Positions 6,495 to 63,934 of a DNA stretch of 63,934 nt are shown here, in pieces. A program made the position numbers and the translations under genes. The notes below the pieces were generated by a model. That model was not told where the DNA came from, did no database searches, and saw only the letters and a program-made list of their open reading frames with translations. The first letter of the stretch is position 1; every line of letters starts with the position of its first letter. The DNA is from a virus: positions 1-63,934 of the IMG/VR virus record IMGVR_UViG_3300048588_000315; one strand, given 5' to 3'.

Positions 6495-8474
6495 CTACCG
6501 AATTGGAGACGCCACGATTTTCCCTTCCACCGTGATCGGCTTTTCGCATCCTGCTTCGGCCCAGTTTCTGTCACTGAATCCCATGTCGATGATGATCGGC
6601 ACGAGGAACGGAGAGGAGACGGATTCCATCGTTTCACGGAAATGCCGATGCAGTCTTGGATCTCGCGCTGCTTCATGAGGAACGTAGGAATCCGTGGAGT
6701 CGTGGACGAGAGCGAAGAGACGCATCCCGAAATCGCGAGAAGTGGAGTTGTATCGCGGGGCGAGAGCGACGACTCGCTCTTTCATCACATCGGCCGCCGA
6801 AGACTGAATGACCGCGTTGAATGCTTTATGAGCCGCCTTGTCTGGAAGAGTCCTCACTCTGCCGAAGTGATTGAACACGTTCCCGCGCATCTTGATCGTG
6901 TCCATCGCCTTCCGAGACGTCGCGCGAATTCCAGGCAGTCGTTCGTGATACGTTGAGTAGACGTCATCGGCTCGCTTCTCAACGAACTCGTTGAACGCCA
7001 GCGCTCGGTTCGCTTCATCCAGTGTTCCGGCCTTGATCAGAGCCGAGACGGTCTCAGTAGCTTCAGCGATGATGTCAGGGTTCGTTACGAGACGCTTCTT
7101 CGTCGTTCGCTTTCCAGCCCCGAACGCCATCGTGAAGTTCAATGTCTTCGCAGGCTTCCGTTTGATCGTGCAGAGTTCGGCGACCCATCGATGAAAGTCC
7201 GTTCTCGGGTTCTGCCGATACGCTTCGATCGCCGTCTCGTCAACGATGTAGTGAACGATCAGGCGAAACTCGATCTGCGAATAGTCGCCACCGAAGATCG
7301 AATACCCATCAGGCGGAATGATGAGCTCCTTCGCCCGGCTGTTCAACTGCTGCGCATTAGGCTTCCGGCACGAGAGACGTCCAGTGCGAACGCATTGGTT
7401 GTATGACGGATGCAGGACTCCGTCGACGTTCAGTTCATCGTAGGTCTGCAGAAACAGTCCGTGGAACTGAGACTCCTTCTTGTACGTCGCCATCAAGTTG
7501 AGGATCTTCTTGACACGTTCATCGAAAAGCACTTTCGGGTGGACAGCGTATGCCGCCATCGCTTCCTTGTCGAAGGATGGATTGCCAGTCTTGTCGTCTC
7601 GCTTGAGGACCGGAAGGCCGAGCTGATTGACCAGAAGATCGTAGGTCTGCGGCGAAGAGTTCGGGTTCATCTCATAGCCGAGCAGCTTCGCCAGCTTCTC
7701 TTCCAGCATGATCATGTGCTGAAGCGTCTTGTAGCGCTCCATCTTCACACGGAGCCGATCCACTCTCATGCCCTCTTCTTCGATATCGAACAGGATCGGC
7801 GTGAAGAGAATCTCGGTCTCCCATACCTTGGCGCATCGTTCTGGCCTACGCCGAAGCATCTCGTGGTAGAGCTCTCTGTTACTGAGAACGTCGCCGCAAG
7901 CGTAGTGTCCGGCCAGATCGATCGGAAGATCACCATAGTCCTTCGACTTCAGTGCCGACAGGAACGCCGACACGCGGTCCTCTTCATGATCTTTCCATCC
8001 GCACCACTCTTGCCGGAGGACCTTCAATCCGTAGGAGAGCCGATCACTCTGGACCAGCTTGGCGAGAGTGTTCGTGTCAACCAATCGACCGCCGAATATC
8101 GCGCCGTCTCTCGCTGCGAAGTGCGCATCGAACAGAACGTTGTGATTGATCCAGTTCTCGCACGTAGCCAGCGTGTCTCTCAACCACGGACGGACGTTCT
8201 CTAACGGGAGATTCTTCGGGTGAGACTTCCACTCTCGCCCGGGATTCGCGTTGTGGCGGACCGGCACGAAGAAGGATCTCGGGTCGTCGTCTCGCGTGAC
8301 GGCGATGCCGCTGATCCTGTGACCGTGGAACGGCTGGAACGCTTCCACTTCGCGATTGAACGAAGTGGTCTCGAAGTCTTGGAAGAGCATCTTCGCGTTC
8401 ATCATGTCCGGTAATTCGGACGCGGACTCGACCACGAATCTGTTCTGGCCTAGTGAGATCATGGCGACGGGCAT
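6495..8474 (-). CDS. DNA polymerase I family (family A) replicative polymerase
   Basis: Phage replicative polymerase of 659 aa. The 3'-5' exonuclease domain shows Exo I DFETT (residue 33 on), Exo II NHNVLFDA and Exo III YACGD. The polymerase domain shows motif A GGDYSQIEFR, motif B RKPAKTLNFTMAFG (keeping the R, K and F positions; the usual Tyr is Phe) and motif C VHDS. Motif C is normally HDE; here the second acid is Ser, as in only some phage members. There is no 5' nuclease domain. The start at 8474 is 2 nt after the upstream stop with AGGA very close; an ATG at 8462 is the alternative. It is downstream of, and probably co-transcribed with, the nucleotide-metabolism genes. Confidence 0.93.
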   Translation of the reverse strand: MPVAMISLGQNRFVVESASELPDMMNAKMLFQDFETTSFNREVEAFQPFHGHRISGIAVTRDDDPRSFFVPVRHNANPGREWKSHPKNLPLENVRPWLRDTLATCENWINHNVLFDAHFAARDGAIFGGRLVDTNTLAKLVQSDRLSYGLKVLRQEWCGWKDHEEDRVSAFLSALKSKDYGDLPIDLAGHYACGDVLSNRELYHEMLRRRPERCAKVWETEILFTPILFDIEEEGMRVDRLRVKMERYKTLQHMIMLEEKLAKLLGYEMNPNSSPQTYDLLVNQLGLPVLKRDDKTGNPSFDKEAMAAYAVHPKVLFDERVKKILNLMATYKKESQFHGLFLQTYDELNVDGVLHPSYNQCVRTGRLSCRKPNAQQLNSRAKELIIPPDGYSIFGGDYSQIEFRLIVHYIVDETAIEAYRQNPRTDFHRWVAELCTIKRKPAKTLNFTMAFGAGKRTTKKRLVTNPDIIAEATETVSALIKAGTLDEANRALAFNEFVEKRADDVYSTYHERLPGIRATSRKAMDTIKMRGNVFNHFGRVRTLPDKAAHKAFNAVIQSSAADVMKERVVALAPRYNSTSRDFGMRLFALVHDSTDSYVPHEAARDPRLHRHFRETMESVSSPFLVPIIIDMGFSDRNWAEAGCEKPITVEGKIVASPIR

Positions 8475-8476: not shown

Positions 8477-8938
8477 CTACTTGAGATCATCCACGTGATA
8501 AGAGATTCCGGCCTTGCGAAGACGCTCTTCTCCGCGCTGGTCATGTTGTGTCAGCGTCTTCCATATCACAGCCATCACGATGCGTGTCTCAATGATGAGA
8601 TTCGCGCATCGTGTGCAAGGAGAGTAACTGACCAGCATGATCGGATTCCTCGCTCTCAGCTCGCTGACATCCTGCTTCATCATGGTCAGGATCATGCGCT
8701 CTTCGGCGTGAACGCATCCGCAGTTCCCGACCTCGTTGGAGCATGAAAACTCAAGCCCGGATCCCGCGTACGGAGGCCCATTGACGCTGCGATGCCACAA
8801 GATGATTCCATTTTCACTTGGAAGCCAGAGAGAGCAGCCGACTCCCTTCCGTTGACACCGAGTGAACTGCTTCGCCTCTTCTTCATCGAGCTGAATGTGC
8901 CTCAGCGCCCAGTCTTTCAATCCTGTCGGTAGCGTCAT
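8477..8938 (-). CDS. dCMP deaminase family protein
   Basis: 153 aa, zinc-dependent cytidine/deoxycytidylate deaminase fold. The zinc and proton-shuttle motif HAEE is at residues 77-80 and the second zinc motif PCxxC at 107-111. The known family reaction is dCMP to dUMP. The neighbours are a dNMP kinase-like protein (ATGA overlap at 8935-8938), a thymidylate-synthase-family enzyme and a MazG-type pyrophosphatase, so it feeds the phage nucleotide pool, probably for modified-base DNA. Good ribosome site (GAAAGGG). It might instead act on a modified dCMP; the sequence cannot tell. Confidence 0.88.
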   Translation of the reverse strand: MTLPTGLKDWALRHIQLDEEEAKQFTRCQRKGVGCSLWLPSENGIILWHRSVNGPPYAGSGLEFSCSNEVGNCGCVHAEERMILTMMKQDVSELRARNPIMLVSYSPCTRCANLIIETRIVMAVIWKTLTQHDQRGEERLRKAGISYHVDDLK

Positions 8939-9483
8939 GCCATTTCCCTTTCACCATTGGCGAGCCGTGCGAAGTTGACGCGATCGGCCCAGATGCCGAG
9001 CCATTCGCGCAGTTCGTTGTCATCAGTGAAGCCTCCGACGTCCACGTAGCTGATCGCGTCGTAGTGAGCGACTCGATCATCGGCTATTTCTTCGAAGCGT
9101 CGCGCAGCTTCTAGTATCCCTTCAGGCCTGAACATCTCGTGCCGTCCAGACTCGATTATGCGTTTGCGATACCAATCCATATCGCCCGGCAGGACGAGCA
9201 ATACGAACGAGCCTCGGCGCAGCAGTTCGCCTTCGATCCACCGAAGCGCTGGCTCCTTCAACGTACCTTCGGGATGGTACGCCAGCGCACCGAGATGAAA
9301 GCGATCTTGCACAGCGTAGTACGACATCATGTCGCGGTAGTGAGTGCTGAAGTTGAAGAGCGCACTCGGTTTCGACATGTGAGAGTATCGCGCCGGAAGA
9401 TTGAACTCGGTGACAGCGAGCTCTACCGCACGTTTCGCCAGTGTCGTCTTCCCCACGTTATCTGGTCCTTCGATGATGAACAT
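8935..9483 (-). CDS. Deoxynucleoside monophosphate kinase-like P-loop protein
   Basis: 182 aa with an N-terminal Walker A, GPDNVGKTT (6-14), right at the start as in thymidylate kinase and phage dNMP kinases. It has a central DRFHLG motif (the DR of thymidylate kinases) and a DMDWYRKRI lid-like region. The likely role is phosphorylation of (modified) dNMP to dNDP in the cytoplasm. It overlaps the deaminase by ATGA and follows the thymidylate-synthase-family gene by 3 nt. In T4 the same step for hydroxymethyl-dCMP is done by gp1; whether this protein accepts a modified nucleotide is inference. Confidence 0.78.
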   Translation of the reverse strand: MFIIEGPDNVGKTTLAKRAVELAVTEFNLPARYSHMSKPSALFNFSTHYRDMMSYYAVQDRFHLGALAYHPEGTLKEPALRWIEGELLRRGSFVLLVLPGDMDWYRKRIIESGRHEMFRPEGILEAARRFEEIADDRVAHYDAISYVDVGGFTDDNELREWLGIWADRVNFARLANGEREMA

Positions 9484-9486: not shown

Positions 9487-10530
9487 TCAGCGTTCCCTTC
9501 TTCGTTTGAGCATGTCAACGACCGCCGCGTTCCAGACGCGGTTCTTCAAGTACTTCTCGAAGTCGTTCTCGTCAGTGATCCACTTCAGTGCTGCCATGAC
9601 CATCAGTTGCCCACAGAGAGAGTTCTGGCCAACGAGATCCATTGACGGAGCGCTGATGCATTTGTGCTTTCGATTGTGCGGCTCCGACTCGACAGAGACC
9701 TTCACGGCGTGAGAGATCTTCGTTTGATGATGATCGTACTTCACGGTGCGAATGGAGTATCCGTCAACGATCGACTCTTCAGCAGCTGCTCGGTTCCTGT
9801 CGTAGAGATGCATCGAACCGACCTGATGCTGATACCATCCAACTTCGGCACGGAGAGCCTCGGCAACGAGGATCTGGATGCCGCAGAAGCAGAAGACGTC
9901 GTACGGCAGGCCGAGCCATGCGTCATTCGATCTCATCGTGCAGATGAGATTCAGCTTCCCCGCTCGCAAGATGAACTGAAGCGACAGCGTGCAAGGAATG
10001 TCGTTCTTGATTCCAGAGAGACCGTAGAGCAGATCCGACGGGTTGAATAGCGCGATCACTGCCTGCCGAGAGTCTGGCTTCTCAGTGAGCATTGAGATCA
10101 CGGCGCTGATAGCGCTGTTCGCCGGTTTGTTCTTCAGCGCTCGATGGAGCTCCTCGTCGTAGAACGGTCGCGGAGAGCCGGGATCTATTACGGCGGAGAA
10201 CCCATGATGGTCCGCCATACGATGACCGTATGCTCCATGAGCGACGCCATTGTTCACGAATCTCGTGTACTGTGGCGCATATGGAACGATGCGGTCAATC
10301 TTGTTCTCGCCACTGAGATACCACAGCAGTTCCGCAGCGGCATAGCTCGGGCACATCGCTCTCACAGGATTCTGCAGCAGGGACTCCGCTGGATACAGCA
10401 GTCGCGCCGCGAACCCCATGCGTTCTCGCGACGCTCCATCACGAGAACCAGTATCTTCGCCGCAATCGAGAATGTCTTTGATCGTGGCGAGCCACATCTC
10501 ATCAATGCACTCAAAGTTCTGTGGATACAT
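9487..10530 (-). CDS. Thymidylate synthase family; Asp signature of dCMP hydroxymethylase
   Basis: 347 aa, ThyA fold. The catalytic Cys is C180 in IPCTL. The nucleotide-binding segments SRQAVIALFNPSD and RSNDAWLGLPYDVF are clear, as is HLY at 241-243. In thymidylate synthase the last block reads GLPFN, and that Asn selects dUMP. Here the residue is Asp (D211), the substitution known from T4 dCMP hydroxymethylase, so the predicted reaction is dCMP plus methylene-tetrahydrofolate to 5-hydroxymethyl-dCMP. A methylating enzyme or dUMP use cannot be excluded. The start at 10530 has AAAGGAG; the longer frame is not needed. It sits between a MazG-type pyrophosphatase and a dNMP kinase, matching a modified-pyrimidine pathway. 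Confidence 0.85.
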   Translation of the reverse strand: MYPQNFECIDEMWLATIKDILDCGEDTGSRDGASRERMGFAARLLYPAESLLQNPVRAMCPSYAAAELLWYLSGENKIDRIVPYAPQYTRFVNNGVAHGAYGHRMADHHGFSAVIDPGSPRPFYDEELHRALKNKPANSAISAVISMLTEKPDSRQAVIALFNPSDLLYGLSGIKNDIPCTLSLQFILRAGKLNLICTMRSNDAWLGLPYDVFCFCGIQILVAEALRAEVGWYQHQVGSMHLYDRNRAAAEESIVDGYSIRTVKYDHHQTKISHAVKVSVESEPHNRKHKCISAPSMDLVGQNSLCGQLMVMAALKWITDENDFEKYLKNRVWNAAVVDMLKRRRER

Positions 10531-10532
10531 GC

Positions 10533-11036
10533 TCAATCTCCTTTCAGCTTCTGTTCCCATCGCCGGCGATCGAGTCCGCGCTGGATAGCTTCCGCGATGC
10601 GCGGAGGCTGATAACTCGGTCCTTTGTCTCTCATCCGCTCGTTGCCGGGAACGCGAAGCTTCTTCGTCATGTTAGAACGATGCACTTCGGCGAAGACCTC
10701 GGCAATTGGAAGACCATACGTGATCGCCGTCCCGACCACGACGTACATCAGATCGGCGAGGCCATCAGCGAACTTCTCCGGATCCTTGTTCGCCATCGCT
10801 TCGAGTGTCTCTCCAAGCTCTTCCATCATGAGGTACGCGCGATACAGGCTTTCATCTCCTGACTTCTGAGCTTCCATCGCCGTGTCCTTCATGGACTCCG
10901 CGATCTCAAGGAGACACTTCGACTCCTGCTCCAGATCCTGAGCGCACTGAGGTTGGATGGCCTCAAAGAAGATGTCCACTGGGAATCCGTACTTCCCATG
11001 GAACTCTCTCAACGCATTGTCAGCTTCGTACAGCAT
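10533..11036 (-). CDS. MazG-type nucleotide pyrophosphohydrolase
   Basis: 167 aa, all-alpha NTP pyrophosphatase. The metal-binding signature is visible as MMEELGETLEA followed by DGLADLMYVVVG, then the C-terminal EVHRSNMTK found in phage dCTP/dUTP-type MazG proteins. The likely role is to hydrolyse a dNTP to dNMP, removing an unwanted canonical nucleotide and supplying substrate for the next gene. The TAATG overlap with the primase stop shows translational coupling. Substrate choice (dCTP or dUTP) is not readable from sequence. Confidence 0.8.
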   Translation of the reverse strand: MLYEADNALREFHGKYGFPVDIFFEAIQPQCAQDLEQESKCLLEIAESMKDTAMEAQKSGDESLYRAYLMMEELGETLEAMANKDPEKFADGLADLMYVVVGTAITYGLPIAEVFAEVHRSNMTKKLRVPGNERMRDKGPSYQPPRIAEAIQRGLDRRRWEQKLKGD

Positions 11037-39949: not shown

Positions 39950-40203
39950 GATTCGGTCTCCTTGTCTTTCTGTGCCCGATCCTTTCGGGCCTTGATCACG
40001 CCGGACGCCATCAGCACGATGCCGATGCCGCCGACGAGTTGTTCCACGTATCCTTGAGCGTCCCCCCATCCTTCGATGGTCGTCGTGTCAATGCCGATCT
40101 TCGTGGCGAAGACAGACAGCAGGATCATGGTCAACCCTGCGATAGCACGGCGCACTCCGGGAATGGAGAGCAGCGACCCCACGATTCTCCACGCCTTTGA
40201 CAT
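39946..40203 (-). CDS. Small membrane protein, holin candidate, 85 aa
   Basis: Two hydrophobic helices (about residues 18-36, AIAGLTMILLSVFATKIGI, and 55-70, LVGGIGIVLMASGVI) separated by a polar loop, with a charged Lys/Asp/Glu C-terminus, as in class II holins. It is translationally coupled to the lipoprotein gene. No endolysin gene lies next to it, so the lysis role is inferred from topology only. Confidence 0.6.
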   Translation of the reverse strand: MSKAWRIVGSLLSIPGVRRAIAGLTMILLSVFATKIGIDTTTIEGWGDAQGYVEQLVGGIGIVLMASGVIKARKDRAQKDKETES

Positions 40204-43200: not shown

Positions 43201-43418
43201 CCGAAGAAAACATCAAACGCGGTCGTGGACTTCGACGAGATCCAGTACTTCTCGCCGTCGATGAACATGTCACTGCTGTCATCGTGGAACCAGATCCAGA
43301 AGTCCTGACCCGTATTGTTGCGAGTCCACTTCTGCTTGCCGTTCTTGGTTCCGTCGACAGTGTGATCGCCGTTCTTTCGCGTATCACCAGCGCCGGACAT
43401 GACGATTTTCGTACTCAT
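40203..43418 (-). CDS. Choice-of-anchor-D repeat protein, possible fibre or appendage, 1071 aa
   Basis: The first ~430 residues are a unique beta-rich domain (Trp/Gly-rich). From about 430 to 1030 there are five tandem Ig-like modules of the choice-of-anchor-D/ASPM-SPD-2-Hydin type, each with GDTTPSVTDDTDFGTTD, then TFTVTFNPTSAGVKTATV and FDITGT. Such repeats extend surface proteins. The final 40 residues are basic and hydrophobic. A head- or neck-attached whisker or host-binding fibre is a reasonable guess. It is the longest head-side gene after the tape measure. Confidence 0.75.
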   Translation of the reverse strand: MSTKIVMSGAGDTRKNGDHTVDGTKNGKQKWTRNNTGQDFWIWFHDDSSDMFIDGEKYWISSKSTTAFDVFFGGPDSEYLRAPADPDNENVPPKFGWTAHNSETAIPDICTVDIEENKRGLVLSCGGTPDPTGLLFRWKDMANDYAVFIADGNGYHVAYQSGQWELRTGVTAFAGTLLAHCLDDGGIPSMAGGWEPDGGWDGDVFAVNAWEFGYTTAALPPLSIYQFDEWVADTGVVGEDPGETALDVVQGTSPGHLKIVFRDPWPGSDPFTDGALNVGIVFDEPEALTGQDRTLLALRTRGQITTIAGSYSGAAKMKFGSGGSNIGGEYPFNLESGGQDCTRWLTPDLSNFPADPELDALSDLADIHVLIEPGGNNTCLNVTTFEVDARYSYWASLAPGLADYTVSGNAVVIESGDTTPSVTDDTDFGTTDTGAPVAHEFTIEVDGGTITISGDIELSGANADQFSITQPETTESISSETFTVTFNPTSAGVKTATVSFDAGGNPSTYTFDITGTAQVTIREAIVSGNGVEIDSGDTTPSVADHTDFEECIVDLTEDRTYTIEAGVDNEAALSIGTITIEGDDADQFEVHAQVGDATLDAEETTTFTIRFSPTSEGAKVATVVIPMNRTDENGTPIAGDFEFDIAGDCVPVPSDPELEVYGNDVLITSGDATPDPADDTDFGNVDFGNNTDVVFELNEAAGLELTLTGTPKVVLSGANAADFEVTDQPTSPIEAFGGDTFTIRFTPSAVGVRSATVTIASNDPASPFTFAIQGTGRAFVPEVADETLEVSIANGDDTPSTEDGTDFGDVIVHAGGSEHTFTITNAGEASGNVTGPATLSGDGAYAFTITGQPTTDPLAPDAATDLVVSVDPTIAGVVTATVSIPHSGPDSPFTFDITATGVVAPEITVTGNGVEIVDADATPSSGDWTAFGNVYTNTYAERTYRITNDGSGDLSVTMAEGSGDFAVVHGAGAQVIPAGESALVVVRFTPSSAEAKTGTLTITSDDEDEGTYTFALSGTGVAPVSGGGGNSAKSNIRVKRKFFPILSPDYVHDLLSELIPNDTVDEKAKGT

Positions 43419-54082: not shown

Positions 54083-54344
54083 GCGGTTCATAGCCATCGG
54101 CTCCTTCCGAGCTTCTCATGAAGACATACGCTGTGTCGGTTTGCAAACAGATGCTGACGCTGATGGGAGTGTATTCTACCACTTCCGGCAACTGAAGACA
54201 ACCTAATAGTTGATCAAAGAACATCTCCGGATCGTTGCAAGTCAGCACGGCATCTTGACAGACGAAGCCGTCAATGATGCGGACGACACGACCAGCGAGA
54301 ACGTCGTTTTTGAAAGTACGCCAGCAGTTCCATGATGCACTCAA
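54036..54344 (-). CDS. Hypothetical protein, 102 aa
   Basis: Contains FKNDVLAGRVVRIIDGFVCQ and LTCNDPEMFFDQLLGCLQLP; no family recognised. The ATG at 54344 overlaps the GNAT gene stop as ATGA. Near its end an A-run (CAAAAAGGA) could let some ribosomes shift into a transmembrane frame (53974-54082). Confidence 0.55.
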   Translation of the reverse strand: MSASWNCWRTFKNDVLAGRVVRIIDGFVCQDAVLTCNDPEMFFDQLLGCLQLPEVVEYTPISVSICLQTDTAYVFMRSSEGADGYEPQKGMNGLRPLCSSGS

Positions 54345-54703
54345 GCCTTTCTTGTCCAGTTGATGTGAGCGATGAACTCAGTCACGCACTCCTCCGGTCC
54401 GTAGTGCGAGATCATTTCCTCTAAGCTGATTCCAAGAGACCCGAAAGCGCCGAGCTTCCGCATCTCCTCTTCCATGGTGAAGAACATCGTCGTGCCGATC
54501 TTCCGTCGGCGCATACGTTCGTTGACGGAGATTCTCCGCACGAACCCGAAGTCGAAGTATGGCCCGCTGTCGATGATCATGAAACCGACAGGTCTCTTCT
54601 CGGCGTGCGCGATGACCGTCGTTCTCCACGTAGAGCAGCGGTACCGAATAGCAAGTTCGCCGACGACTACCGTTTTCTCAACCGCATTTCCGTATAGCAG
54701 CAT
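54341..54703 (-). CDS. GNAT-type acetyltransferase-like protein, 120 aa
   Basis: The segment FVRRISVNERMRRRKIGTTM matches the acetyl-CoA-binding motif of GNAT proteins (V..RRxxxG followed by a helix). The N-terminal strands and a C-terminal part fit a small GNAT domain. Its likely target is an amine; in this modified-base cluster, an amino group on DNA or a nucleotide is a fair guess. The ATG at 54703 uses the ribosome site of the repeated leader; the longer frame upstream is the repeat array. Confidence 0.65.
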   Translation of the reverse strand: MLLYGNAVEKTVVVGELAIRYRCSTWRTTVIAHAEKRPVGFMIIDSGPYFDFGFVRRISVNERMRRRKIGTTMFFTMEEEMRKLGAFGSLGISLEEMISHYGPEECVTEFIAHINWTRKA

Positions 54704-54802
54704 TTTCTGTCCTTCCTGTCCGCTGGCCCCGACCATTACAGAGTCCGGGTCGCGCCTAGACCGCATACTGGCCCGACCCGGACGCTGTAATAGCCCTGCC
54801 GC
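54704..54802 (-). repeat. Repeated leader, copy 2, with long hairpin and ribosome site
   Basis: Nearly identical to 24129-24226. An 18-bp stem with one mismatch (ATTACAG.GTCCGGGTCG with CGACCCGGAC.CTGTAAT, 54735-54791, loop 21 nt), then GGACAGGAAGGACAGAAA right before the ATG of the GNAT gene. Confidence 0.8.
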
Positions 54803-55471
54803 TGGCGGTCTTTCCAAGGCGGAGCCCCATTCGGAGGGGCCAATTTCCAAGGCGGGAGCCCGCTCGGAGGGCTCATTTTCCAAGGCGGAGCCCCATTCAG
54901 AGGGGCCAATTTCCAAGGCGGGAGCCCGCTCGGAGGGCTCATTTTCCAAGGCGGAGCCCCATTCGGAGGGACCAATTTCCAAGGCGGAGCCCCATTCAGA
55001 GGGCCCATTTTCCAAGGCGGAGCCCCATTCGGAGGGGCCAATTTCCAAGGCGGGAGCCCTGCCGCTGGCCCTGCCGCCCTGCCGCTGGCCCTGCCGCCCT
55101 GCCGCTGGCCCTGCCGCCCTGCCGCTGGCCCTGCCGCCCTGCCGCCCTGCCGCTGGCCCTGCCGCCCTGCCGCTGGCCCTGCCGCCCTGCCGCTGGCCAG
55201 CGGTCTTTCCAAGGCGGAGCCCTGCCGCCCTGCCGCTCTTTCCAAGGCGGGAGCCCGCTCCGAGGGCCCAATTTCCAAGGCGGGAGCCCGCTCCGAGGGC
55301 CCAATTTCCAAGGCGGGAGCCCGCTCCGAGGGCCCAATTTCCAAGGCGGGAGCCCGCTCGGAGGCCTGAATTTCCAAGGCGGGAGCCCGCTCCGAGGGCC
55401 CAATTTCCAAGGCGGGAGCCCGCTCGGAGGCCGGTCTTTCAAACGCCAGCGGCAGGGCGGACCATCGTCTT
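54803..55471. repeat. Tandem array of 33-bp and 8/12-nt units, second copy
   Basis: 33-bp units (about 54810-55055 and 55225-55440) flank a block of CCGCCCTG/CCGCTGGCCCTG units (55056-55200). The core words GGCGGGAGCCCGCTCC and GAGGGCCC and TTTCCAA are the same as at 24227-25104. It starts directly after the stop of the 55472 gene. Near 55430-55485 the word CTTTCAAACGCC occurs twice. Confidence 0.85.
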
Positions 55472-56251
55472 TCAAACGCCGGACCGCTGAACCGTCATCA
55501 TGAACGTTTCAGCCGCAAGCGCGTTCCTCAGTTCATCGATGGACGCGTACTCGGCCGCGATGCCCGAAGCGTAGTGGAACACTTGTTCGCGCGGACCGAC
55601 GAGGAAGACCGGCTTCTTGAGAGCGAGCGCAATACCGACTTCGCTGTGCCTTCCGCCTTTAGTTTCTGTATCGCCAGTCAACACCACGACGAAATCCACA
55701 CCGACAATATCTTCCAGATCATGGTCGGCCATCTCCTGCTTCGTGAAGCGTGGATGCTCAGCGTACCCTGAACCCTGTTCCTTCGCCAGATCTATCCATC
55801 GCGCCGTCACCCGGATTCCAGCGCTGCGAAGAGCCGACGCGATCGCCTCGGCTTCATGACGACGAGGAAAGCTGGCGGCGACATACGCCGACAAGGCTTC
55901 TCGCCCTGCCGTTCGCTGGCCGAAGACTTGATACTCGGCGACCGACGCACGATGCTCGCTGACGCCGAGATGCATCAGCGTTTCCTTGAAGTTCCGCCGG
56001 GACGGATCGATGATGCGTGCGCAGATCGCCGGACCGGACTTGACGACAACGGCTCTCACTGAACCGGTATCATCCGTCCGCGTGCCGATCACGCGAACGA
56101 CGTTACCGTCATCCGTCGGGGCCATCCAGACCTGATCCGGCACGAGACCTTTCCCGCCGTCTCGCGTGCGCAGTACTTCACACGCTTTCTCGAACTCGCT
56201 CAGTCCGTACTGATCGATCAGTCTCAACGCTTCTTGAAGCTTTGCTCTCAT
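55472..56251 (-). CDS. Nucleoside 2-deoxyribosyltransferase-like protein with extra N-terminus, 259 aa
   Basis: The C-terminal ~130 residues have the 2-deoxyribosyltransferase-like fold: VAASFPRRHEAEAIASALRS, VDFVVVLTGDTET, GGRHSEVGIALALKKPVFLV. The Glu in RHSEVG is at the place of the catalytic Glu of this family. The N-terminal 120 residues are unknown (SEFEKACEVLRTRDGG). It may move or hydrolyse a (modified) nucleobase. It is the neighbour of the base-modification genes. The ATG at 56251 has AAAGG. Confidence 0.72.
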   Translation of the reverse strand: MRAKLQEALRLIDQYGLSEFEKACEVLRTRDGGKGLVPDQVWMAPTDDGNVVRVIGTRTDDTGSVRAVVVKSGPAICARIIDPSRRNFKETLMHLGVSEHRASVAEYQVFGQRTAGREALSAYVAASFPRRHEAEAIASALRSAGIRVTARWIDLAKEQGSGYAEHPRFTKQEMADHDLEDIVGVDFVVVLTGDTETKGGRHSEVGIALALKKPVFLVGPREQVFHYASGIAAEYASIDELRNALAAETFMMTVQRSGV

Positions 56252-56254
56252 GGA

Positions 56255-56920
56255 TCATTTCGCCTTTCCACAGATAAAGAGGTGACGCTTTCGTGAGATA
56301 CCGCCGCTGTCACCACAGCCGAGGTGATCAGCGTAACCGAACGCCGACGACAGGAGACCTTGGATCTCATCAGTGTCCATCTTCGCGCCTTGAATGTTGG
56401 ACTCGAAGAAACACCGACCGCCTTTCGCCACGAGCGAGGCTAGCCATCCGTAGAACGTCGGCAGATAATCAACGTCGAAGTAGTCATCAACCGAACAGCA
56501 GAAGACCACGCTCGCCTTGCCGATCTTCGGCAGGCTGACCCTGAAGTCTGCCTGCCGAAAGTCAACGTGCCCGGACTTGTTCATGCCGTGGAATTCGGCA
56601 ACGTCCCTGCAGAACTGAATCCGTTCATCGTTGAATTCCATGCCGAGGATGTTCCGGCATCCGCGACGCCATGCTTCCCAGCAGAGAGCGCCGACGTTCG
56701 AGCCGACGTCGAACATGGTTTCTTTCGCCAGCGCCGATGGGCTGTCATCGAAGCCAAAGTCGTCGAACCGCTTGATCGTATCCCGAACGTACTCCTCGTT
56801 CTCGAACGGCGGTATGGTCAGCCGAGAGTAGAGACCGTGCGATCGGGTCGTAGACAGACGCTTCCCGCCGCCGCTGAGACGATGGGCCTCGTGGATAAGT
56901 TCGCTCGCAGACTTCATCAT
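56255..56920 (-). CDS. Class I SAM methyltransferase-like protein, 221 aa
   Basis: SAM-binding motif I, MFDVGSNVGALCWEAW, is clear, followed by ILGMEFNDERIQFCRDVAEF (acidic end of motif II) and VVFCCSVDDYF at the motif IV place. The target is not shown; no DNA-methylase NPPY/DPPY is seen, so a small molecule, tRNA-like or base-modifying intermediate is possible. It overlaps the radical SAM gene as ATGA and is part of the modification cluster. Confidence 0.75.
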   Translation of the reverse strand: MMKSASELIHEAHRLSGGGKRLSTTRSHGLYSRLTIPPFENEEYVRDTIKRFDDFGFDDSPSALAKETMFDVGSNVGALCWEAWRRGCRNILGMEFNDERIQFCRDVAEFHGMNKSGHVDFRQADFRVSLPKIGKASVVFCCSVDDYFDVDYLPTFYGWLASLVAKGGRCFFESNIQGAKMDTDEIQGLLSSAFGYADHLGCGDSGGISRKRHLFICGKAK

Positions 56921-57993
56921 GTCCTCGCTTTCTTGGAACTGACAGTGAGCGGAATGAAGGAAGGCTGACCGTACCCGATGTCGTCAGCTGAGAGCCAGTC
57001 TTCCGCTAAGATGGCCTCGTCGGCTTCCGGAGAACCGAACGTAATATTCGGCACGTTCCACCGATAGAAGCCTCCGTGATAGTTGCATTGACGGCACAGG
57101 GGAGACCGCCGGTCCTTGTTCTGCAGCTTCAGTCGCAGCTTGTGATATCGCTCATCGTTCCACAGCTCGACGAGAGAGCGCTCAGCCACGTTGCCGGGAG
57201 ATCCGGCTCCGTAGTAGTCGTCGCAGCATTGGATCATGCTTCCTTTCCAGTTGATGATCATGCTGCGGAACGGCCTCACGCACGAGGCCTTCAGCGGCTC
57301 GGCCAGCGGCTTGGAGAACCACGGGATCGCTCCAGCCCGATTGTCGATGGCGTACCGCATCGACTCCTCGTGCTTCTTCTTGCCGAGATGGATCGACTTG
57401 TCGGCATCACCCGGCTGATATCCGTACCATGGAACGGCTTTCACGGTACGGTAGTCAGCGCCACAGTGTTGGAAGATGTTCCCGCCGATGTGAAGGCGAT
57501 CTACCTTCCGCTGCACTTCGTCGAACCATGCCTTGAACTTCTCGTGTCGCTCCCGTGCTTCGGCGATCCCGCCAGCGATGAGATCCGCATCGCCGGTCCC
57601 GTCGTGCTTGCTGTAGACGTTGATCTGGAACTGATTCAGTCCTGCTTCGAACAACGACACGATGTCCTCCGGTCCGCGAAGCAGATCGCCGTTCGACAAC
57701 ACTGCGATCGACGTTCGCGGGAGAACCTCTCGCACGTGCCGGATGCGATGGCGGATCAGCGGATCGAGTAGCGGTTCGTTGTACGAGTACAGATGCACTC
57801 GGCCTTTGAACTTCAGTTCGGCCAGCTCGAGGATGATCTTGTTCCAGATCGCCTCGTCCATCATCTCCTTCGGTCGCGGCGCATGGCTCTCAGGGCAGAA
57901 CGTGCATCGGCGATTGCAGTGTCCGCATGTCTCAATGCCGATGATGCTGAACAGTCTCGTGTTCTCTTTGGATACGTCGTATGTCTGCGGCAT
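56917..57993 (-). CDS. Radical SAM/SPASM enzyme, 358 aa
   Basis: The radical SAM cluster motif is CNRRCTFC (C26, C30, C33). The barrel includes YSYNEPLLDP (a typical GEP/NEP element) and VLSNGDLL. The C-terminal SPASM-like part has IQCCDDYYGAGSPG and SPLCRQCNYHGG, which bind additional iron-sulfur. In thymidine-hypermodifying phages a radical SAM enzyme rearranges an amino-acid adduct on DNA; the neighbours here make a similar role possible. ATG at 57993 with GTAGGAGG. Confidence 0.85.
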   Translation of the reverse strand: MPQTYDVSKENTRLFSIIGIETCGHCNRRCTFCPESHAPRPKEMMDEAIWNKIILELAELKFKGRVHLYSYNEPLLDPLIRHRIRHVREVLPRTSIAVLSNGDLLRGPEDIVSLFEAGLNQFQINVYSKHDGTGDADLIAGGIAEARERHEKFKAWFDEVQRKVDRLHIGGNIFQHCGADYRTVKAVPWYGYQPGDADKSIHLGKKKHEESMRYAIDNRAGAIPWFSKPLAEPLKASCVRPFRSMIINWKGSMIQCCDDYYGAGSPGNVAERSLVELWNDERYHKLRLKLQNKDRRSPLCRQCNYHGGFYRWNVPNITFGSPEADEAILAEDWLSADDIGYGQPSFIPLTVSSKKART

Positions 57994-58001
57994 TCAGCCT
58001 C

Positions 58002-58598
58002 CTACTGGACGGACTTGATCCGCCCGAAAATTTCGTTGGCGATGTACTGGAACGAGCCCCGGATCACGGTGATGTCTCGCTTCTCATCGCCACGAGCGAT
58101 GGAAGCGATCAGGTCTTCATGCTGCTTCAGCAGCTTGTGGTATCTGTCCTTGAGAATCCGGTTGTCACCTTCTCGGAACAGCATCCGCCCGTGTCTCTGC
58201 CGGCGCGCAGAACGATTCTTGATGCACTCGTTCAATGGCGTACCGAGAAACGCGAAGACGACTGGCCCGCGATCAGCGAGACGGAGCCATCTCGGCAACG
58301 AGTCGCTGACTGCTCCACCTTCGAACAGAACGATGCGATAGAGATCGCGCAGTTCATCGACAGCTTCATAGATGCGATGGATCGGCCTGATGCCGTCGCA
58401 TCCTCCAGTCGGCCTGTCGTAGCGTCCAACGATGGCGACCTTGCCGTCATCGTCGGCAATGAACGGAACGGCCCATCGCTCCTTCTCCACCTGGAGCAGC
58501 TTCAGTTCGCCTTTGATCACTTCGGCGAGCTCGACCATCATCGTGGTCTTCCCTGCTCCGTTCGTTCCTCTCACGTTGATCACTGTCCCGAGCGTCAT
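58002..58598 (-). CDS. 5-hydroxymethylpyrimidine DNA kinase-like P-loop protein, 198 aa
   Basis: P-loop GTNGAGKTT (11-19), then VGRYDRPTGGCDG (about 57-69) and IVLFEGG, the combination seen in phage 5-hmdU DNA kinases (Iyer and Aravind; Lee and Weigele work). Those enzymes put a phosphate on the hydroxymethyl group of DNA so that a nucleophile can replace it. Substrate base cannot be read. The ATG at 58598 overlaps the upstream stop as ATGA and has GGAG. The frame upstream in the same reading direction is a shadow. Confidence 0.75.
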   Translation of the reverse strand: MTLGTVINVRGTNGAGKTTMMVELAEVIKGELKLLQVEKERWAVPFIADDDGKVAIVGRYDRPTGGCDGIRPIHRIYEAVDELRDLYRIVLFEGGAVSDSLPRWLRLADRGPVVFAFLGTPLNECIKNRSARRQRHGRMLFREGDNRILKDRYHKLLKQHEDLIASIARGDEKRDITVIRGSFQYIANEIFGRIKSVQ

Positions 58599-59575
58599 AG
58601 CTTCTCCTTTCCTGTCACTCCGGTCCACAGTTCGCGGACGCGAGCAGCGAGGATCGAAGTGAAATCCTTCTTCCATGCCTGCTGCTCCTGCCGTATCTCC
58701 TCGCTCATCGGCAGAAGCTTCGCAACATCGGCGGCAGACGCGACAGTGTAGCGATCCACGTTGTATCCGGCGGTCTGGAACGTGCCGACGGCCGACCGAT
58801 CGAAGAACAGCGGTACGCCAGCGGAGAGGCACTCGTAGAACCGGTTCGCCGGAGAGTTGTACGTCGAGTGAGTGAACTCGTCTTCGATGTAGATGCTCGC
58901 CTGATAGCTGGCGATCTCGGACAGTGAGAGAAACTTCGGCACGGCGGTGAAGTTGCATCCGGCGTCGCGGAACTTCAGCACAGCGCCATCGGAAGTCGTG
59001 GAGAGCAGCGTCGGGTACAGATCGGAGGAGAAGTAGCGCTTGAAGTACTGGACACGATCCTGACGGAACGCTCCGTAGTAGAACAGGCCCGGGACCGGGT
59101 CCGGCCTCGGCCTCTTCGCCTCCGCCATCTCCGAGAACGTCACCATGTTGAGATCGACATAGTCGATCGGAGGGAGGAGCATGTGACGATAGGTCTTGCG
59201 AGAGGCGAAGTTCGGCGGCATCTTCGGAATGTTCGCCCACGTGAACAGCCTCGGCAGATCGCCCTTCGCTTCGCGCTCGAACAGCGCTGTCCTCAGTTGC
59301 GTCGGCGTGTAGAGCGTGTAGTCATTCATCACGTACACGAAATTCTTGCACTCGTTCACTGCTCCGGCCAGATCATCGAGCCACGTGCAGAAGGCGCTCG
59401 GGCTGTTGACGAGGATGATCGTGTCGATGAAAACATCCTCCATCACCTTCGCCAGTTTGTCCTCAGTGTCGACAAGCGGAAGGTTGAGAGTATGCGAAAG
59501 GAACTTCGCGATACGAGCCGACGCCTGAATGCTCGTATCACTGCACTTCGTCATATGGACTACGATACTGTTCAT
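58595..59575 (-). CDS. Glycosyltransferase-like protein, 326 aa
   Basis: The GT-B type C-terminal signature SPANRFYECLSAGVPLFFDR is clear, with a first domain of Rossmann type (FIDTIILVNSPSAF) and a region VYVMNDYTLYTPTQLR. It may glucosylate or otherwise glycosylate the modified base in DNA, as in T4, since it lies in the cluster between the DNA kinase-like and pyrophosphorylase-like genes. The acceptor is inference. ATG at 59575 with AAGGAGAA. Confidence 0.72.
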   Translation of the reverse strand: MNSIVVHMTKCSDTSIQASARIAKFLSHTLNLPLVDTEDKLAKVMEDVFIDTIILVNSPSAFCTWLDDLAGAVNECKNFVYVMNDYTLYTPTQLRTALFEREAKGDLPRLFTWANIPKMPPNFASRKTYRHMLLPPIDYVDLNMVTFSEMAEAKRPRPDPVPGLFYYGAFRQDRVQYFKRYFSSDLYPTLLSTTSDGAVLKFRDAGCNFTAVPKFLSLSEIASYQASIYIEDEFTHSTYNSPANRFYECLSAGVPLFFDRSAVGTFQTAGYNVDRYTVASAADVAKLLPMSEEIRQEQQAWKKDFTSILAARVRELWTGVTGKEKL

Positions 59576-59596
59576 GGTTCTCCTTGATGATTGAAG

Positions 59597-59641
59597 ATCA
59601 AAACAGTCTCAGCCCGATGCGACAACGAGCCGCATCGGGCT
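59597..59641 (-). terminator. Possible terminator hairpin
   Basis: AGCCCGATGCG and CGCATCGGGCT form a perfect 11-bp stem (59611-59641) and the minus strand continues GAGACTGTTTTG. It follows the stop of the pyrophosphorylase-like gene and precedes the glycosyltransferase leader. Confidence 0.55.
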
Positions 59642-59660
59642 GGACTGCTAACTGGTGATG

Positions 59661-60623
59661 TCATGCGTTCGGAGAGCCGACGCCATCGTATTTCTGGCGA
59701 GGCTTGCCTTGACCGAGCCGAACCCGTTCGTACTTGTCGAACTCGCACAGCGAGTGCTCGATCTCGCGCAGCTCGAACGGAGGCCAGATCTCACACTGCG
59801 CATCGAACGAACCGAGTGAGTCCTTGTACTGCCGCCGGTCGGCGATCCGCTTCTTCTTCCACAGATGCGGATGATGCCATCGCACGTTATCCGGCAACTG
59901 ATGGACAGCGGCATGGTTCCACAGCGAGAACATGGAGGACAGCGTCGGCTCCTTGCCGATACGACGCAATCCACGCTTCGCTCCCGGGCCGACGTTCGCC
60001 CACGTGTCAACGTCGCACGGATCGGTGATGAAGATGCTTCGCTGGAACCGCATGTCGCATACCATTTCGTATGCGATGAACGGGCCGACGAAGTGCGTCT
60101 TCCGCAGGGCATGGAACATCGCTTCCATGCTGTTCTCCGTGTGAGCGAGAAGCAGCAGTTCGCCGGATCGCTGAAGCAATTCTCGAACCGAGTTCTTGTA
60201 CGAGATGAACTTCGGTATGCCAGCTTCGCCGCCGGTCATGTGCGCTGAGGTGAAGATCTTATCGCCAGCGCGATACTTGACCTCCAGCGCATCGAGAACT
60301 TCTTTCGCCGTGTAGCAGTACCCTGGAGTCTCGGCGTGTTCGTAGTGGTTGAACAGCCGATACCAACAGATGTTGAACACGTCGAGCATCGGCATGTATC
60401 GCGTGTCCTTCTGTCCACGCTCGAGCATGTCCAGCAGTGCGACGGTTCCCTTGTCGAGCTGACGGAACACGTTTGTGAACTTGTACTGCTGCATGATCTT
60501 GTCCGTGGTCCACGGCCTCGGATTTCCGGCGTCACGCGATTGCCAAATCGCGTGACGCCGACCGATCCACGTGAAGAACCGGCTCACTGTTGAGGAGCCG
60601 TCTTCGAAATCGCGCTTTCCCAT
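59661..60623 (-). CDS. Alpha-glutamyl/putrescinyl-thymine pyrophosphorylase-like (clade 2), 320 aa
   Basis: The N-terminal pattern FFTWIGRRHAIW, then RPWTTDKIMQQYKFTNVFRQ, then the helical FNICWYRLFNHYEHAETPGY is the signature of the aGPT-Pplase2/HMUDK-helical family. Members in phage hypermodification systems displace a phosphate on hydroxymethylpyrimidine in DNA by an amine or amino acid. Conserved Lys/His-rich C-terminal part (WHHPHLWKKKRI). It lies with a DNA kinase-like and a radical SAM enzyme. ATG at 60623 with AAAGGCG. Confidence 0.85.
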   Translation of the reverse strand: MGKRDFEDGSSTVSRFFTWIGRRHAIWQSRDAGNPRPWTTDKIMQQYKFTNVFRQLDKGTVALLDMLERGQKDTRYMPMLDVFNICWYRLFNHYEHAETPGYCYTAKEVLDALEVKYRAGDKIFTSAHMTGGEAGIPKFISYKNSVRELLQRSGELLLLAHTENSMEAMFHALRKTHFVGPFIAYEMVCDMRFQRSIFITDPCDVDTWANVGPGAKRGLRRIGKEPTLSSMFSLWNHAAVHQLPDNVRWHHPHLWKKKRIADRRQYKDSLGSFDAQCEIWPPFELREIEHSLCEFDKYERVRLGQGKPRQKYDGVGSPNA

Positions 60624-60823
60624 TGCTTCGCCTTTCTGTCCACTTCCTTGAGCAACTCTTCACTGAGCAACTCTTCGCGGTGGACGAGTATGTTTGGATC
60701 GAACTCCGACAGAACGGTCATGTTCTTGCCATTGAACCGGCACGTGAACCGACCGAGGATGTTTCCATCCTTGTCCCGAACGATGATTCGCTGACCTTGT
60801 TTTCGGTGGACTTCAAGCGCCAT
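60584..60823 (-). CDS. CsrA-like RNA-binding protein, 79 aa
   Basis: The layout fits CsrA/RsmA: RKQGQRIIVRD near the start, a strand NGKNMTVL, and NILVHREELLSEELL near residues 50-64; VHREE is the conserved RNA-contacting end of CsrA. It is a little longer at the C-terminus (KEVDRKAKQWE). Host CsrA binds ANGGA in hairpin loops. The phage has many Shine-Dalgarno hairpins with AAGGA, so this protein may regulate phage or host translation. ATG at 60823 with AAGGAG; the longer frame lies inside the ligase gene. Confidence 0.6.
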   Translation of the reverse strand: MALEVHRKQGQRIIVRDKDGNILGRFTCRFNGKNMTVLSEFDPNILVHREELLSEELLKEVDRKAKQWESAISKTAPQQ

Positions 60824-61718
60824 TGATCTGCTCCTTCTTGCATTCGTTCGGGGTCTTGTCATCACGGAAGCGGATGAAGCGAGGGAACTCCAAACCGCCT
60901 TTCGCGAGGACGGACTGATACTCGACTTCGATCACCTTGCCGAGAACGTCGGCCGACTTGAGATGCCGCCGAAGTTCATCGCTCAGGCCAGTGCCGACGC
61001 GGCCGATGCCGACCAGCTTCTTGCCATCGTACAAGCCGATGCCGAGAGCGCCGAGTTCGCCGAAGTACTTCCCAGTCCCGGGGATGAACTCGGTCACCAC
61101 GACATCGCACGTTGCCCGGACCTTGATGCGATACCATCGATCCCAGTGAGCATCCTTGATCACGATGCCCTCCCACTTGCGATCGAGACAGACCTTCCGC
61201 ACGACCTCGGTCAGCATGGAAGCGATCCCGCGACTGGAGTCCCAGATGGCCCGCTGCTCGTTGATGAACTCATCAACGTAGAAGGCCGGGATGAACGGGA
61301 TCCCCCATTCCTTCATCATGGACTCGACGGCATCGAGATCCCATTCAGTGCGATCGCGTCCGGCCCAGAGCGGATTCGCGAAGACATTGAACGCGACCGT
61401 CTCCGGCGTGTTGATCATCGCCTGAATCACGTTGCTGGCCCGGTCTTCGGTGGTCGCTAGCTCGCCGTCGAGCACTGTGGACTTCGGCAGATCGAGAGCC
61501 ATCTTGTAGATGGCCGGGATCTCCTTCATGCGATCCCAGTAGTCGGTCTTCCCGGCGATCGCGTTGATCGTGCCTCGCTCGTTCTTCACAAGCGTAACGC
61601 GATGACCGTTACGCTTCCGCTGGCCCCATATCACCGACTCGCCTTTATAGTCGGTAGGCTTCGGGCGGTTGATGGCGTACTCAAGAGGCTTCATTGCTTG
61701 CTTTCCAAACGCTGTCAT
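60813..61718 (-). CDS. ATP-dependent DNA ligase, 301 aa
   Basis: Motif I is RKRNGHR with the lysine to be adenylated at K35. Motif III DGELATTED, motif IV EGIVIKD and motif V YRIKVR are in order, followed by an OB-fold domain (GIGRVGTGLSDELRR, VLGKVIEVEYQSVLAKGG). It seals nicks in replication and repair. It starts at 61718 behind a CTAG-TAAGGAG-CTAG ribosome-site hairpin and ends 11 nt into the CsrA-like gene. Confidence 0.9.
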   Translation of the reverse strand: MTAFGKQAMKPLEYAINRPKPTDYKGESVIWGQRKRNGHRVTLVKNERGTINAIAGKTDYWDRMKEIPAIYKMALDLPKSTVLDGELATTEDRASNVIQAMINTPETVAFNVFANPLWAGRDRTEWDLDAVESMMKEWGIPFIPAFYVDEFINEQRAIWDSSRGIASMLTEVVRKVCLDRKWEGIVIKDAHWDRWYRIKVRATCDVVVTEFIPGTGKYFGELGALGIGLYDGKKLVGIGRVGTGLSDELRRHLKSADVLGKVIEVEYQSVLAKGGLEFPRFIRFRDDKTPNECKKEQINGA

Positions 61719-63804: not shown

Positions 63805-63812
63805 AGGACGTT

Positions 63813-63827
63813 GCGCCTCCTTAGCGC
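63813..63827 (-). promoter_or_regulatory. Shine-Dalgarno hairpin for the complete helicase gene
   Basis: Same GCGC-TAAGGAG-GCGC structure as at 1368-1382, sequence identical there although the coding region around it differs. Confidence 0.6.
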
Positions 63828-63934
63828 TGTTCAGTCGACGGATCGACCTGATCATCGTCGGGGTTGAGGAAGTTAAGATTCGCACTCTTCATCGCCTGTC
63901 GTAGCATGGCGATTTCTTCTTCGTTGAGCTTGCC
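63821..63934 (-). CDS. Coiled-coil protein, C-terminal fragment at window edge
   Basis: The last ~37 codons (KLNEEEIAMLRQAMKSANLN and the end DPSTEQR) are identical to the end of the gene 1376-1852. The rest lies outside the window. It shows that the contig ends overlap. Confidence 0.8.
   Translation of the reverse strand, partial: GKLNEEEIAMLRQAMKSANLNFLNPDDDQVDPSTEQR

Follow-up and report, generated by a model that had tools for sequence, protein, structure and literature searches.

A viral gene cassette predicted to hypermodify DNA bases, most likely cytosine, with kinase, transferase and sugar-tailoring enzymes

Introduction

Which base of viral DNA is the target of a compact cluster of kinase, transferase and tailoring genes, and what chemistry might such a cluster perform? 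The question is raised by a 63,934-nucleotide stretch (IMG/VR record IMGVR_UViG_3300048588_000315, positions 1 to 63,934; hereafter the window), for which a preliminary description had proposed a hypermodification cluster combining kinase, pyrophosphorylase-like, radical SAM, glycosyltransferase and methyltransferase genes. We found all the genes so named, every one on the minus strand. Judging from the sequence, this uncultivated bacterial virus very likely puts a complex chemical group on its own DNA bases.

Results and Discussion

Organization of the cassette

The cassette begins with an amino-acid:DNA transferase (AADT) gene, followed by a coupled run of glycosyltransferase, kinase, radical SAM, methyltransferase and nucleoside 2-deoxyribosyltransferase-like (NDT-like) genes:

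59661..60623, minus strand: aGPT-PPlase2 or AADT, 320 aa
59610..59642, minus strand: terminator-like hairpin in the AADT/glycosyltransferase gap, with a 14-bp stem and a T-rich tail
58595..59575, minus strand: predicted DNA glycosyltransferase of the T4 BGT fold, 326 aa, recognized by an AlphaFold2 model and fold search
58002..58598, minus strand: HMUDK-family P-loop DNA-base kinase, 198 aa, with corrected start
56917..57993, minus strand: BtrN-like twitch radical SAM enzyme, 358 aa (its matches to PF04055 and PF13186 exceed their cut-offs)
56255..56920, minus strand: class I SAM methyltransferase, 221 aa, below the Pfam cut-offs
55472..56251, minus strand: NDT-like protein, 259 aa
54341..54703 (true frame), minus strand: GNAT acetyltransferase-like protein, 120 aa (PF00583, 24.0 bits, cut-off 20.7)

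ATGA overlaps join the glycosyltransferase to the kinase gene and the radical SAM to the methyltransferase gene, and the remaining gaps in the run are below 10 bp. The kinase had been listed as a 412-aa frame (58002-59240), which is over-extended: the ATG at the corrected start overlaps the glycosyltransferase stop. The hairpin is a pattern match only, from a scan in which such sites were fewer than in shuffles. The AADT-glycosyltransferase gene order, in some cases with the radical SAM gene, is repeated in many unrelated viral contigs and hence reflects more than chance.

Two genes at the far end of the cluster are less secure. The deoxyribosyltransferase-like gene is indeed part of the coupled run, and its product is 46% identical over 130 aa to a neighbour of the closest radical SAM relative (locus L062); its NDT assignment is doubtful (PF05014, 28.4 bits against a cut-off of 28.8) and its membership in the cassette uncertain. 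The GNAT, previously counted among the pathway genes, lies beyond repeat arrays that put about 770 bp between it and the run, and had no homologue in the related loci; on these grounds we leave it out of the pathway.

The kinase and AADT

The AADT covers nearly the whole of the PF18723 HMUDK_hel model (positions 3-277 of 281; E 1.9e-40, 139.5 bits, cut-off 25) and is 28-33% identical to its homologues in M6-like phages. A single-protein query with it against viral contigs gave no match, and an alignment-based scan did find AADT relatives. The kinase stays below the cut-off of PF18748 HMUDK_HMUD1 (E 1.2e-4, 22.1 bits, cut-off 27), its family being placed instead by phrog_800 (E 4e-15) and by M6 gp54 (32% identity over 86%). 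In an alignment with M6 gp54 and 11 others, the GxxGxGK, GxY..GxD and EG motifs are invariant (R10, G11, G14, G16, K17, Y60, G66, D68, E93 and G94). The proposed pairing of a kinase with aGPT-PPlase2 is thus borne out by family matches, the AADT directly and the kinase by the less direct route.

By analogy, the AADT is predicted to place an amine or amino acid onto an activated base in DNA. To our knowledge, HMUDK and AADT have been characterized on 5-hmdU only, and we know these families only from thymine modification. AADT is present in nearly all the HMUDK loci fetched; conversely, an HMUDK kinase occurs in 3 of the 24 AADT records searched, glycosyltransferase-bearing ones being included among those without it. 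Where the kinase is missing, the AADT may have a different role.

A glycosyltransferase of the T4 BGT fold

A Pfam search with the glycosyltransferase was silent (E 0.12), and its profile matched no glycosyltransferase in the PDB by sequence alone; the relation emerges from fold search. The AlphaFold2 model (pLDDT 91.9) has T4 DNA beta-glucosyltransferase (BGT) as its top PDB match (Z 22.0, rmsd 3.2, 299 residues), ahead of T4 AGT (Z 18) and a remainder at Z of 17.5 or less. A direct hhalign comparison with T4 BGT gave E 6e-7, with about 15% of the aligned residues identical, and pairs D85, R171, D232, R245 and E248 of the window protein with D100, R191, D258, R269 and E272, so that the catalytic base D100 and the donor-site residues R191, R269 and E272 are kept. 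R171, R245 and E248 are invariant across 31 sequences of the family, while the equally invariant R174 sits one alignment column off the donor-site R195. Based on the model, the enzyme would act on hydroxymethyl-pyrimidine-derived DNA, with acceptor and sugar predicted as set out below.

The contexts of this family bear on whether the locus carries out one modification or two. Of 38 clusters formed at 90% identity, 17 have AADT near the glycosyltransferase; the distance is for the most part 0-3.3 kb, and several separate AADT branches are represented. The family is also seen in records that gave no AADT (19 of 20). It is conceivable that the BGT-like enzyme puts its sugar straight onto hydroxymethyl-pyrimidines, where the radical SAM enzyme and methyltransferase would work on it, and that the kinase and AADT produce a separate amine or amino-acid modification of other bases. 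T4 BGT does glucosylate the hydroxymethyl base directly, and the records lacking AADT, together with the missing HMUDK kinase in most AADT records searched, would fit such a division. However, the glycosyltransferase adjoins AADT in many lineages and is translationally coupled to the kinase, both of which suggest a single pathway, and we regard two parallel modifications as doubtful.

The radical SAM enzyme and methyltransferase

Both phmmer (E 6e-25) and profile comparison (E 9e-34, with the auxiliary-cluster cysteines aligned) relate the radical SAM enzyme to BtrN. Its predicted model, of low confidence (pLDDT 63.8), matches BtrN (4m7t) at Z 24.8 over 238 aa with 26% identity, the next match being at Z 15.3. 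The CxxxCxxC cysteines C26, C30 and C33, along with C238, C256, C300 and C303, do not vary among 15 sequences and line up with the BtrN cysteines. An M6-type identity was rejected, the similarity to M6 gp53 (E 0.13) not being meaningful. Hence a carbon-skeleton rearrangement of the M6 style is not expected; by analogy with BtrN, the enzyme is predicted to oxidize a carbinol to a ketone. A phage match considered for it, MT835743, was not used since its V-type ATPase genes suggest a bacterial contig.

The methyltransferase shares 38% identity with the C-terminal half of L010:9901-11037, a protein of the nearest relative that joins kinase and methyltransferase in one chain. The glycosyltransferase, radical SAM enzyme and methyltransferase of the original proposal recur elsewhere, either with AADT or fused to the kinase. 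Sets of radical SAM enzymes, glycosyltransferases and methyltransferases are also found in cell-surface and natural-product clusters, and BtrN, according to the title of the best structural match, belongs to an antibiotic pathway. These three enzymes could accordingly act off DNA, on a host glycan, small molecule or protein, in an accidental AADT neighbourhood. We consider this very improbable in view of the DNA glycosyltransferase as top fold match, the conserved AADT-glycosyltransferase-radical SAM-hydroxymethylase-polymerase order and the kinase-methyltransferase fusion. Taken together, the AADT and kinase families, the BGT-fold match, the fusion and the closeness of AADT and glycosyltransferase genes offer good support for a DNA-base hypermodification cassette.

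The parent base

Several nucleotide-pool and replication genes encoded elsewhere in the window bear on the base under modification:

6495..8474, minus strand: family A DNA polymerase (PF00476, E 6e-42)
8477..8938, minus strand: deoxycytidylate deaminase-like protein (PF00383, E 8.5e-10), HAE and PCxxC motifs intact
8935..9483, minus strand: dNMP kinase-like P-loop protein (weak PF02223), candidate supplier of the modified dNTP
9487..10560, minus strand: ThyA-like pyrimidine hydroxymethylase, predicted dCMP-specific (C190, T191, D221)
10533..11036, minus strand: PRA-PH/MazG-type nucleotide pyrophosphohydrolase, candidate dCTPase (PF01503, E 1.2e-14)
60813..61718, minus strand: ATP-dependent DNA ligase (PF14743, E 1.1e-11), a backbone marker of the clade

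The ThyA-like enzyme, the only one in the window, matches PF00303 (E 8e-23) and falls under all NCBIfam thymidylate synthase cut-offs. Its D221 aligns with D179 of T4 gp42, and the catalytic C190 is followed by T191, a non-His residue. Asp179 decides dCMP specificity in T4 gp42 (PMC6400193), and positions 177 and 147 discriminate cytosine-modified contigs best, Asp at TS-177 and non-His at 147 marking the cytosine-modifying phages (PMC8670742). Ligase, PRA-PH and dCMP-deaminase domains are also associated with or co-occur in such contigs (PMC8670742), and the window holds the same domain set. The dCMP-specifying Asp and the Thr beside the catalytic Cys make a cytosine base more likely than the 5-hydroxymethyl-dU of the preliminary description: the enzyme is predicted from these residues to make hm-dCMP, and a 5-hydroxymethylcytosine-derived base is the likeliest product.

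This feature extends beyond the window. The same Asp is found in 12 of the 12 relatives from the ligase-AADT clade, in which the ligase adjoins AADT, whose hydroxymethylase was read; Asn occupies the position in M6 gp58 and in 81 M6-type enzymes or table rows, most from AADT loci. The two hydroxymethylase types split on a branch with a starred value of 100. In the AADT tree, the AADTs of Asp phages form a single clade (support 100/98) that includes that of the window. TAGT, a glycosyltransferase known from hmC phages, adjoins AADT in two members of the ligase-AADT clade. The dNMP kinase-like gene is syntenic with the hydroxymethylase gene in L061, L064, L068 and L080.

Several observations would nevertheless accord with thymine as the parent base, the ThyA-like enzyme using dUMP despite its Asp, or hm-dCMP being turned into hm-dUMP by deamination before incorporation, with kinase and AADT acting as in M6/ViI and the other enzymes providing extra tailoring. 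Both families are known from hmdU phages; the deaminase, with its HAE/PCxxC motifs, could deaminate hm-dCMP; the glycosyltransferase, together with a radical SAM enzyme, is likewise found in Asn-type AADT phages; and L070 pairs an Asp-type enzyme with an M6-like set (kinase, PLP and M6-type radical SAM). The kinase tree, used as a second test of a base switch, did not recover Asp-phage kinases as one clade and is poorly resolved. Set against this are the marker residues of the cytosine modifiers, the role of Asp179 in T4 gp42, and the uniformity and separateness of the Asp lineage, which lead us to see a thymine base as unlikely.

A proposed pathway

We therefore favour, as moderately probable, a virion-DNA base hypermodification cassette most likely acting on cytosine by a five-step route, for which we infer the product chemistry, step order and donors. 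Going by its residues and synteny, the ThyA-like enzyme would first convert dCMP to 5-hydroxymethyl-dCMP; this would be phosphorylated further by the dNMP kinase, on the way to a triphosphate that the family A polymerase would put into DNA as hmC. After replication, if homology to M6/ViI is a guide, the HMUDK-type kinase would phosphorylate the 5-hydroxymethyl group and the AADT would replace the (pyro)phosphate by an amine or amino acid. Third, the BGT-fold enzyme might transfer sugar from a UDP-sugar to a hydroxyl of the modified base; fourth, the BtrN-like enzyme might oxidize a carbinol in either the sugar or the side chain; and fifth, the methyltransferase, kinase-fused in a relative, could cap the group. 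The outcome would be a bulky base that shields the phage from nucleases. Alternatively, the kinase and glycosyltransferase could share the hydroxymethyl group, on different bases.

More tentatively, and as a possibility rather than an expectation, we propose that the kinase/AADT chemistry was shifted onto 5-hydroxymethylcytosine across the ligase-AADT clade, the window adding an oxidized, methylated sugar on an amine or amino-acid linker. We know of no earlier description of this class of DNA base on cytosine. If true, the parent base of hypermodification would be swappable by replacing one nucleotide-pool enzyme, and cytosine would, throughout a clade, be the target of enzymes now named 5-hmdU kinase and thymine pyrophosphorylase. 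The analysis further identifies a T4-BGT-like glycosyltransferase family, hitherto without annotation, that recurs beside AADT, and it points to DNA as a possible substrate of a BtrN-like radical SAM enzyme.

Comparison with known systems

With the M6-type thymidine pathway the window shares, in one genome, kinase and AADT homologues, a family A polymerase, a deaminase and a ThyA-like hydroxymethylase. It differs in the dCMP type of the latter (Asp221 against Asn in M6 gp58), in a radical SAM enzyme unrelated to M6 gp53, and in adding a BGT-like glycosyltransferase and a methyltransferase; profiles of PLP, aGPT-PPlase1 and the M6-type radical SAM enzyme had no match in the window. In the Escherichia phages IME392 and EP_H11, the glycosyltransferase (34% identity) likewise adjoins AADT, and a P-loop kinase and hydroxymethylase are present too. 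Unlike in the window, their hydroxymethylase is of the Asn type (predicted dUMP), the kinase is from another family, and a PIG-L deacetylase and second glycosyltransferase-like gene occur; no radical SAM gene was found among the proteins scanned.

T4 hmC glucosylation offers a parallel in its dCMP-type hydroxymethylase (gp42, with Asp179 and a Thr after Cys148) and in a glycosyltransferase whose BGT fold and key residues recur in the window enzyme, at the low identity given above. T4, as far as we know, is without AADT, HMUDK kinase or a tailoring radical SAM enzyme or methyltransferase. The MetaGPA cytosine-modified contigs resemble the window in their Asp177-type ThyA-like enzyme and their ligase, PRA-PH and dCMP-deaminase domains; the tailoring enzyme characterized in that study is a 5-hmC carbamoyltransferase, and its text makes no mention of an HMUDK/PF18723 cassette (PMC8670742). 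Finally, BtrN, the radical SAM dehydrogenase of butirosin synthesis, has the same radical SAM and auxiliary-cluster cysteines as the window enzyme; it serves antibiotic synthesis, with a free aminocyclitol as its substrate, whereas the window homologue is encoded in a DNA-modification operon.

Genomic setting and organization of the cassette

The whole window, 63,934 bp, is one IMG/VR virus record. Its - strand carries siphovirus-type genes for terminase, portal, capsid, tape measure and tail. Close to the terminase gene, 40203-43418 encodes a 1071-aa protein with ASPM-SPD-2-Hydin/DUF1573-type Ig-like domains. Positions 1-1489 and 62461-63934, at opposite ends of the window, share 87% identity and each include a helicase copy (91% aa between the two), a pattern that would arise if assembly had passed once around the genome and entered a strain variant; this suggests a circular or permuted genome, and the genome is probably near complete. 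On the - strand, a helicase and an ATP-dependent ligase are followed by these genes:

59661-60623, -, AADT (amino-acid:DNA transferase, aGPT-PPlase2; PF18723 match)
58595-59575, -, glycosyltransferase (fold match to T4 beta-glucosyltransferase, BGT)
58002-58598, -, HMUDK-type kinase (aligned with phage M6 gp54)
56917-57993, -, radical SAM enzyme (BtrN-like)
56255-56920, -, methyltransferase (fused to the kinase in L010, the nearest relative)
55472-56251, -, NDT-like protein (last gene before repeat arrays)
54341-54703, -, GNAT (beyond the repeat arrays)

ATGA overlaps join the glycosyltransferase to the kinase and the radical SAM enzyme to the methyltransferase, the remaining gaps of the glycosyltransferase-to-NDT run are below 10 bp, and a terminator-like hairpin separates the AADT from the glycosyltransferase. 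The mechanically listed kinase ORF proved over-extended, and its start was reassigned to the ATG at 58598.

Repeat arrays lie at 24217-25096 and 54811-55430 (also 1899-2226 and 6438-6486), built of a 33-bp TTTCCAAGGCGGGAGCCCGCTCCGAGGGCCCAA unit and of GCCCTGCCGCTG-like units. TTTCCAAGGCGG occurs in 32 copies, on the + strand only, spread over two arrays of about 82% mutual similarity; one array sits between the NDT and GNAT genes.

The AADT, the kinase and their neighbors

The AADT matches PF18723 with 139.5 bits (cut-off 25) and shares 28-33% identity with homologues of M6-like phages. The kinase scores under the PF18748 cut-off; when aligned with M6 gp54 and eleven others, its P-loop, GxY...GxD and EG motifs are invariant. 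The kinase and aGPT-PPlase2 of the preliminary description are confirmed. Since nearly all of the 80 viral loci retrieved with the kinase alignment also hold an AADT, the pairing is a real functional link. Among 24 AADT records searched, some being fragments, an HMUDK kinase was detectable in only 3.

L010 has the same order as the window (helicase-ligase-AADT...glycosyltransferase-radical SAM), and there a single protein of 378 aa carries both a kinase domain (36% identity to that of the window) and a methyltransferase domain (38%), a fusion that by sequence ties the predicted methyltransferase to the kinase. The NDT-like protein, whose relatives are located near ribonucleotide reductase, may serve the nucleotide pool; neither it nor the GNAT enters the mechanism proposed below.

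A BGT-like glycosyltransferase and a BtrN-like radical SAM enzyme

Sequence libraries gave no match for the glycosyltransferase. An AlphaFold2 model built from 31 homologues (pLDDT 91.9) finds T4 BGT as its best match (Foldseek E 6e-10; Z 22.0 across 299 residues, against 18 for the T4 alpha-glucosyltransferase and at most 17.5 for other glycosyltransferases); the predicted fold supports the earlier assignment as a GT-B glycosyltransferase-like protein. Profile comparison with BGT (E 6e-7) pairs D85 with D100, R171 with R191, D232 with D258, R245 with R269 and E248 with E272; in T4 BGT it is established that D100 is the catalytic base and that the other four contact UDP-glucose.

The family is found with an AADT in 17 of 38 clusters (90% identity), a fraction biased upward in that five of the 17 were reached via the AADT scan. 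It is not exclusive to AADT: of 20 further glycosyltransferase-bearing records, 19 lacked one. The accompanying AADTs fall on several separate tree branches, the cultured Escherichia phages IME392 and EP_H11 included. Loci L011-L015, L021-L031, L063, L067 and L080, some of them fragments, hold the AADT and glycosyltransferase with no detectable HMUDK kinase.

BtrN is the sole PDB sequence match of the radical SAM protein (E 6e-25; profile E 9e-34) and leads the structure comparison (Z 24.8 across 238 residues, next 15.3; model confidence low, 63.8). C26, C30 and C33, together with C238, C256, C300 and C303, are invariant and coincide with the BtrN clusters. BtrN dehydrogenates an aminocyclitol, so our best guess by analogy is that the window enzyme would do the same to a sugar or side-chain carbinol.

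The modified base

T4 gp42 selects dCMP through Asp179 (PMC6400193). In a metagenome study (PMC8670742), E. coli TS positions 177 and 147 were the best two separators of cytosine-modified contigs, Asp being the residue at 177. The ThyA-like enzyme of the window has Asp221 and Thr191 there, as do those of loci L061, L064, L065, L067, L068 and L080; Asp also occurs in the retrieved enzymes of L010, L060, L062, L063, L069 and L070. Asn/Asn is seen in 81 rows of the same table, most from AADT loci, M6 and IME392 included, and His/Asn in four annotated thymidylate synthases. The window enzyme scores far under every NCBIfam thymidylate synthase cut-off. A 100* branch divides Asp from Asn types in the enzyme tree; in the AADT tree, the proteins of Asp phages group as a single clade (100/98) inside the Asn ones. 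The window also has all three of ligase PF14743, PRA-PH PF01503 and deaminase PF00383, which are associated or co-listed with modified cytosine (PMC8670742).

The residue pair, the lineage split and this domain set together make cytosine the likelier modified base, and the hmdU initially proposed is not supported, the enzyme carrying the dCMP-type pair. The main doubt lies in the deaminase, which could convert hm-dCMP to hm-dUMP and make thymine the base, and in L070, which couples an Asp-type enzyme with an M6-type gene set; against this, Asp221/Thr191 matches the pattern of cytosine-modified contigs (PMC8670742). We rate the cytosine reading as the newest point of the cassette.

Variable cassettes in related phages

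Across phages with the ligase-AADT backbone, the region from the AADT to ribonucleotide reductase varies in content:

L070: M6-type kinase/aGPT1/PLP/radical SAM
L063: TAGT, sugar-nucleotidyltransferase-like protein and window-type glycosyltransferase
L080 and L067: TAGT-like or GT-A genes and glycosyltransferase
L010: B12-type radical SAM and second methyltransferase

Between its AADT and glycosyltransferase, L010 has (at 5944-7796) an additional methyltransferase along with a B12-binding radical SAM protein, which point to further tailoring such as C-methylation. In L063 (9553-11993), the TAGT (PF20691), together with a nucleotidyltransferase-like and a kinase-like protein that both lack Pfam matches, lies between the same two genes; the set likely provides a phage-made sugar donor. 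Sulfotransferase-like P-loop proteins adjoin the glycosyltransferase in the AADT loci L016 (7217-7999) and L099 (5721-6482), possibly for a sulfated base modification; the L016 protein, the one scanned, falls below the PF13469 cut-off.

Proposed pathway and comparison with known systems

With the cassette, its operon structure, families, conserved residues, recurrent neighborhood and fusion evident from sequence or fold, we propose that the ThyA-like enzyme would synthesize hm-dCMP, the kinase would phosphorylate the hydroxymethyl group and the AADT would add an amine or amino acid; the glycosyltransferase may then transfer a sugar, the radical SAM enzyme oxidize and the methyltransferase methylate, in this presumed order. 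Among the 80 HMUDK loci retrieved, the kinase was found together with a window-type glycosyltransferase and radical SAM enzyme only in contig L010 and a near-identical partner.

The radical SAM enzyme noted at the outset beside the kinase and AADT is present; it is however not of the M6-like kind, being BtrN-like and unrelated to M6 gp53. In IME392 and EP_H11, the glycosyltransferase abuts an AADT, a kinase and a hydroxymethylase, and a PIG-L deacetylase lies nearby, as does a further glycosyltransferase-like gene; in the cultured coliphage IME392 (L002, 3078-11933) the row reads methyltransferase, BCCT transporter, PIG-L deacetylase, GT-A-like, glycosyltransferase, AADT, kinase and hydroxymethylase.
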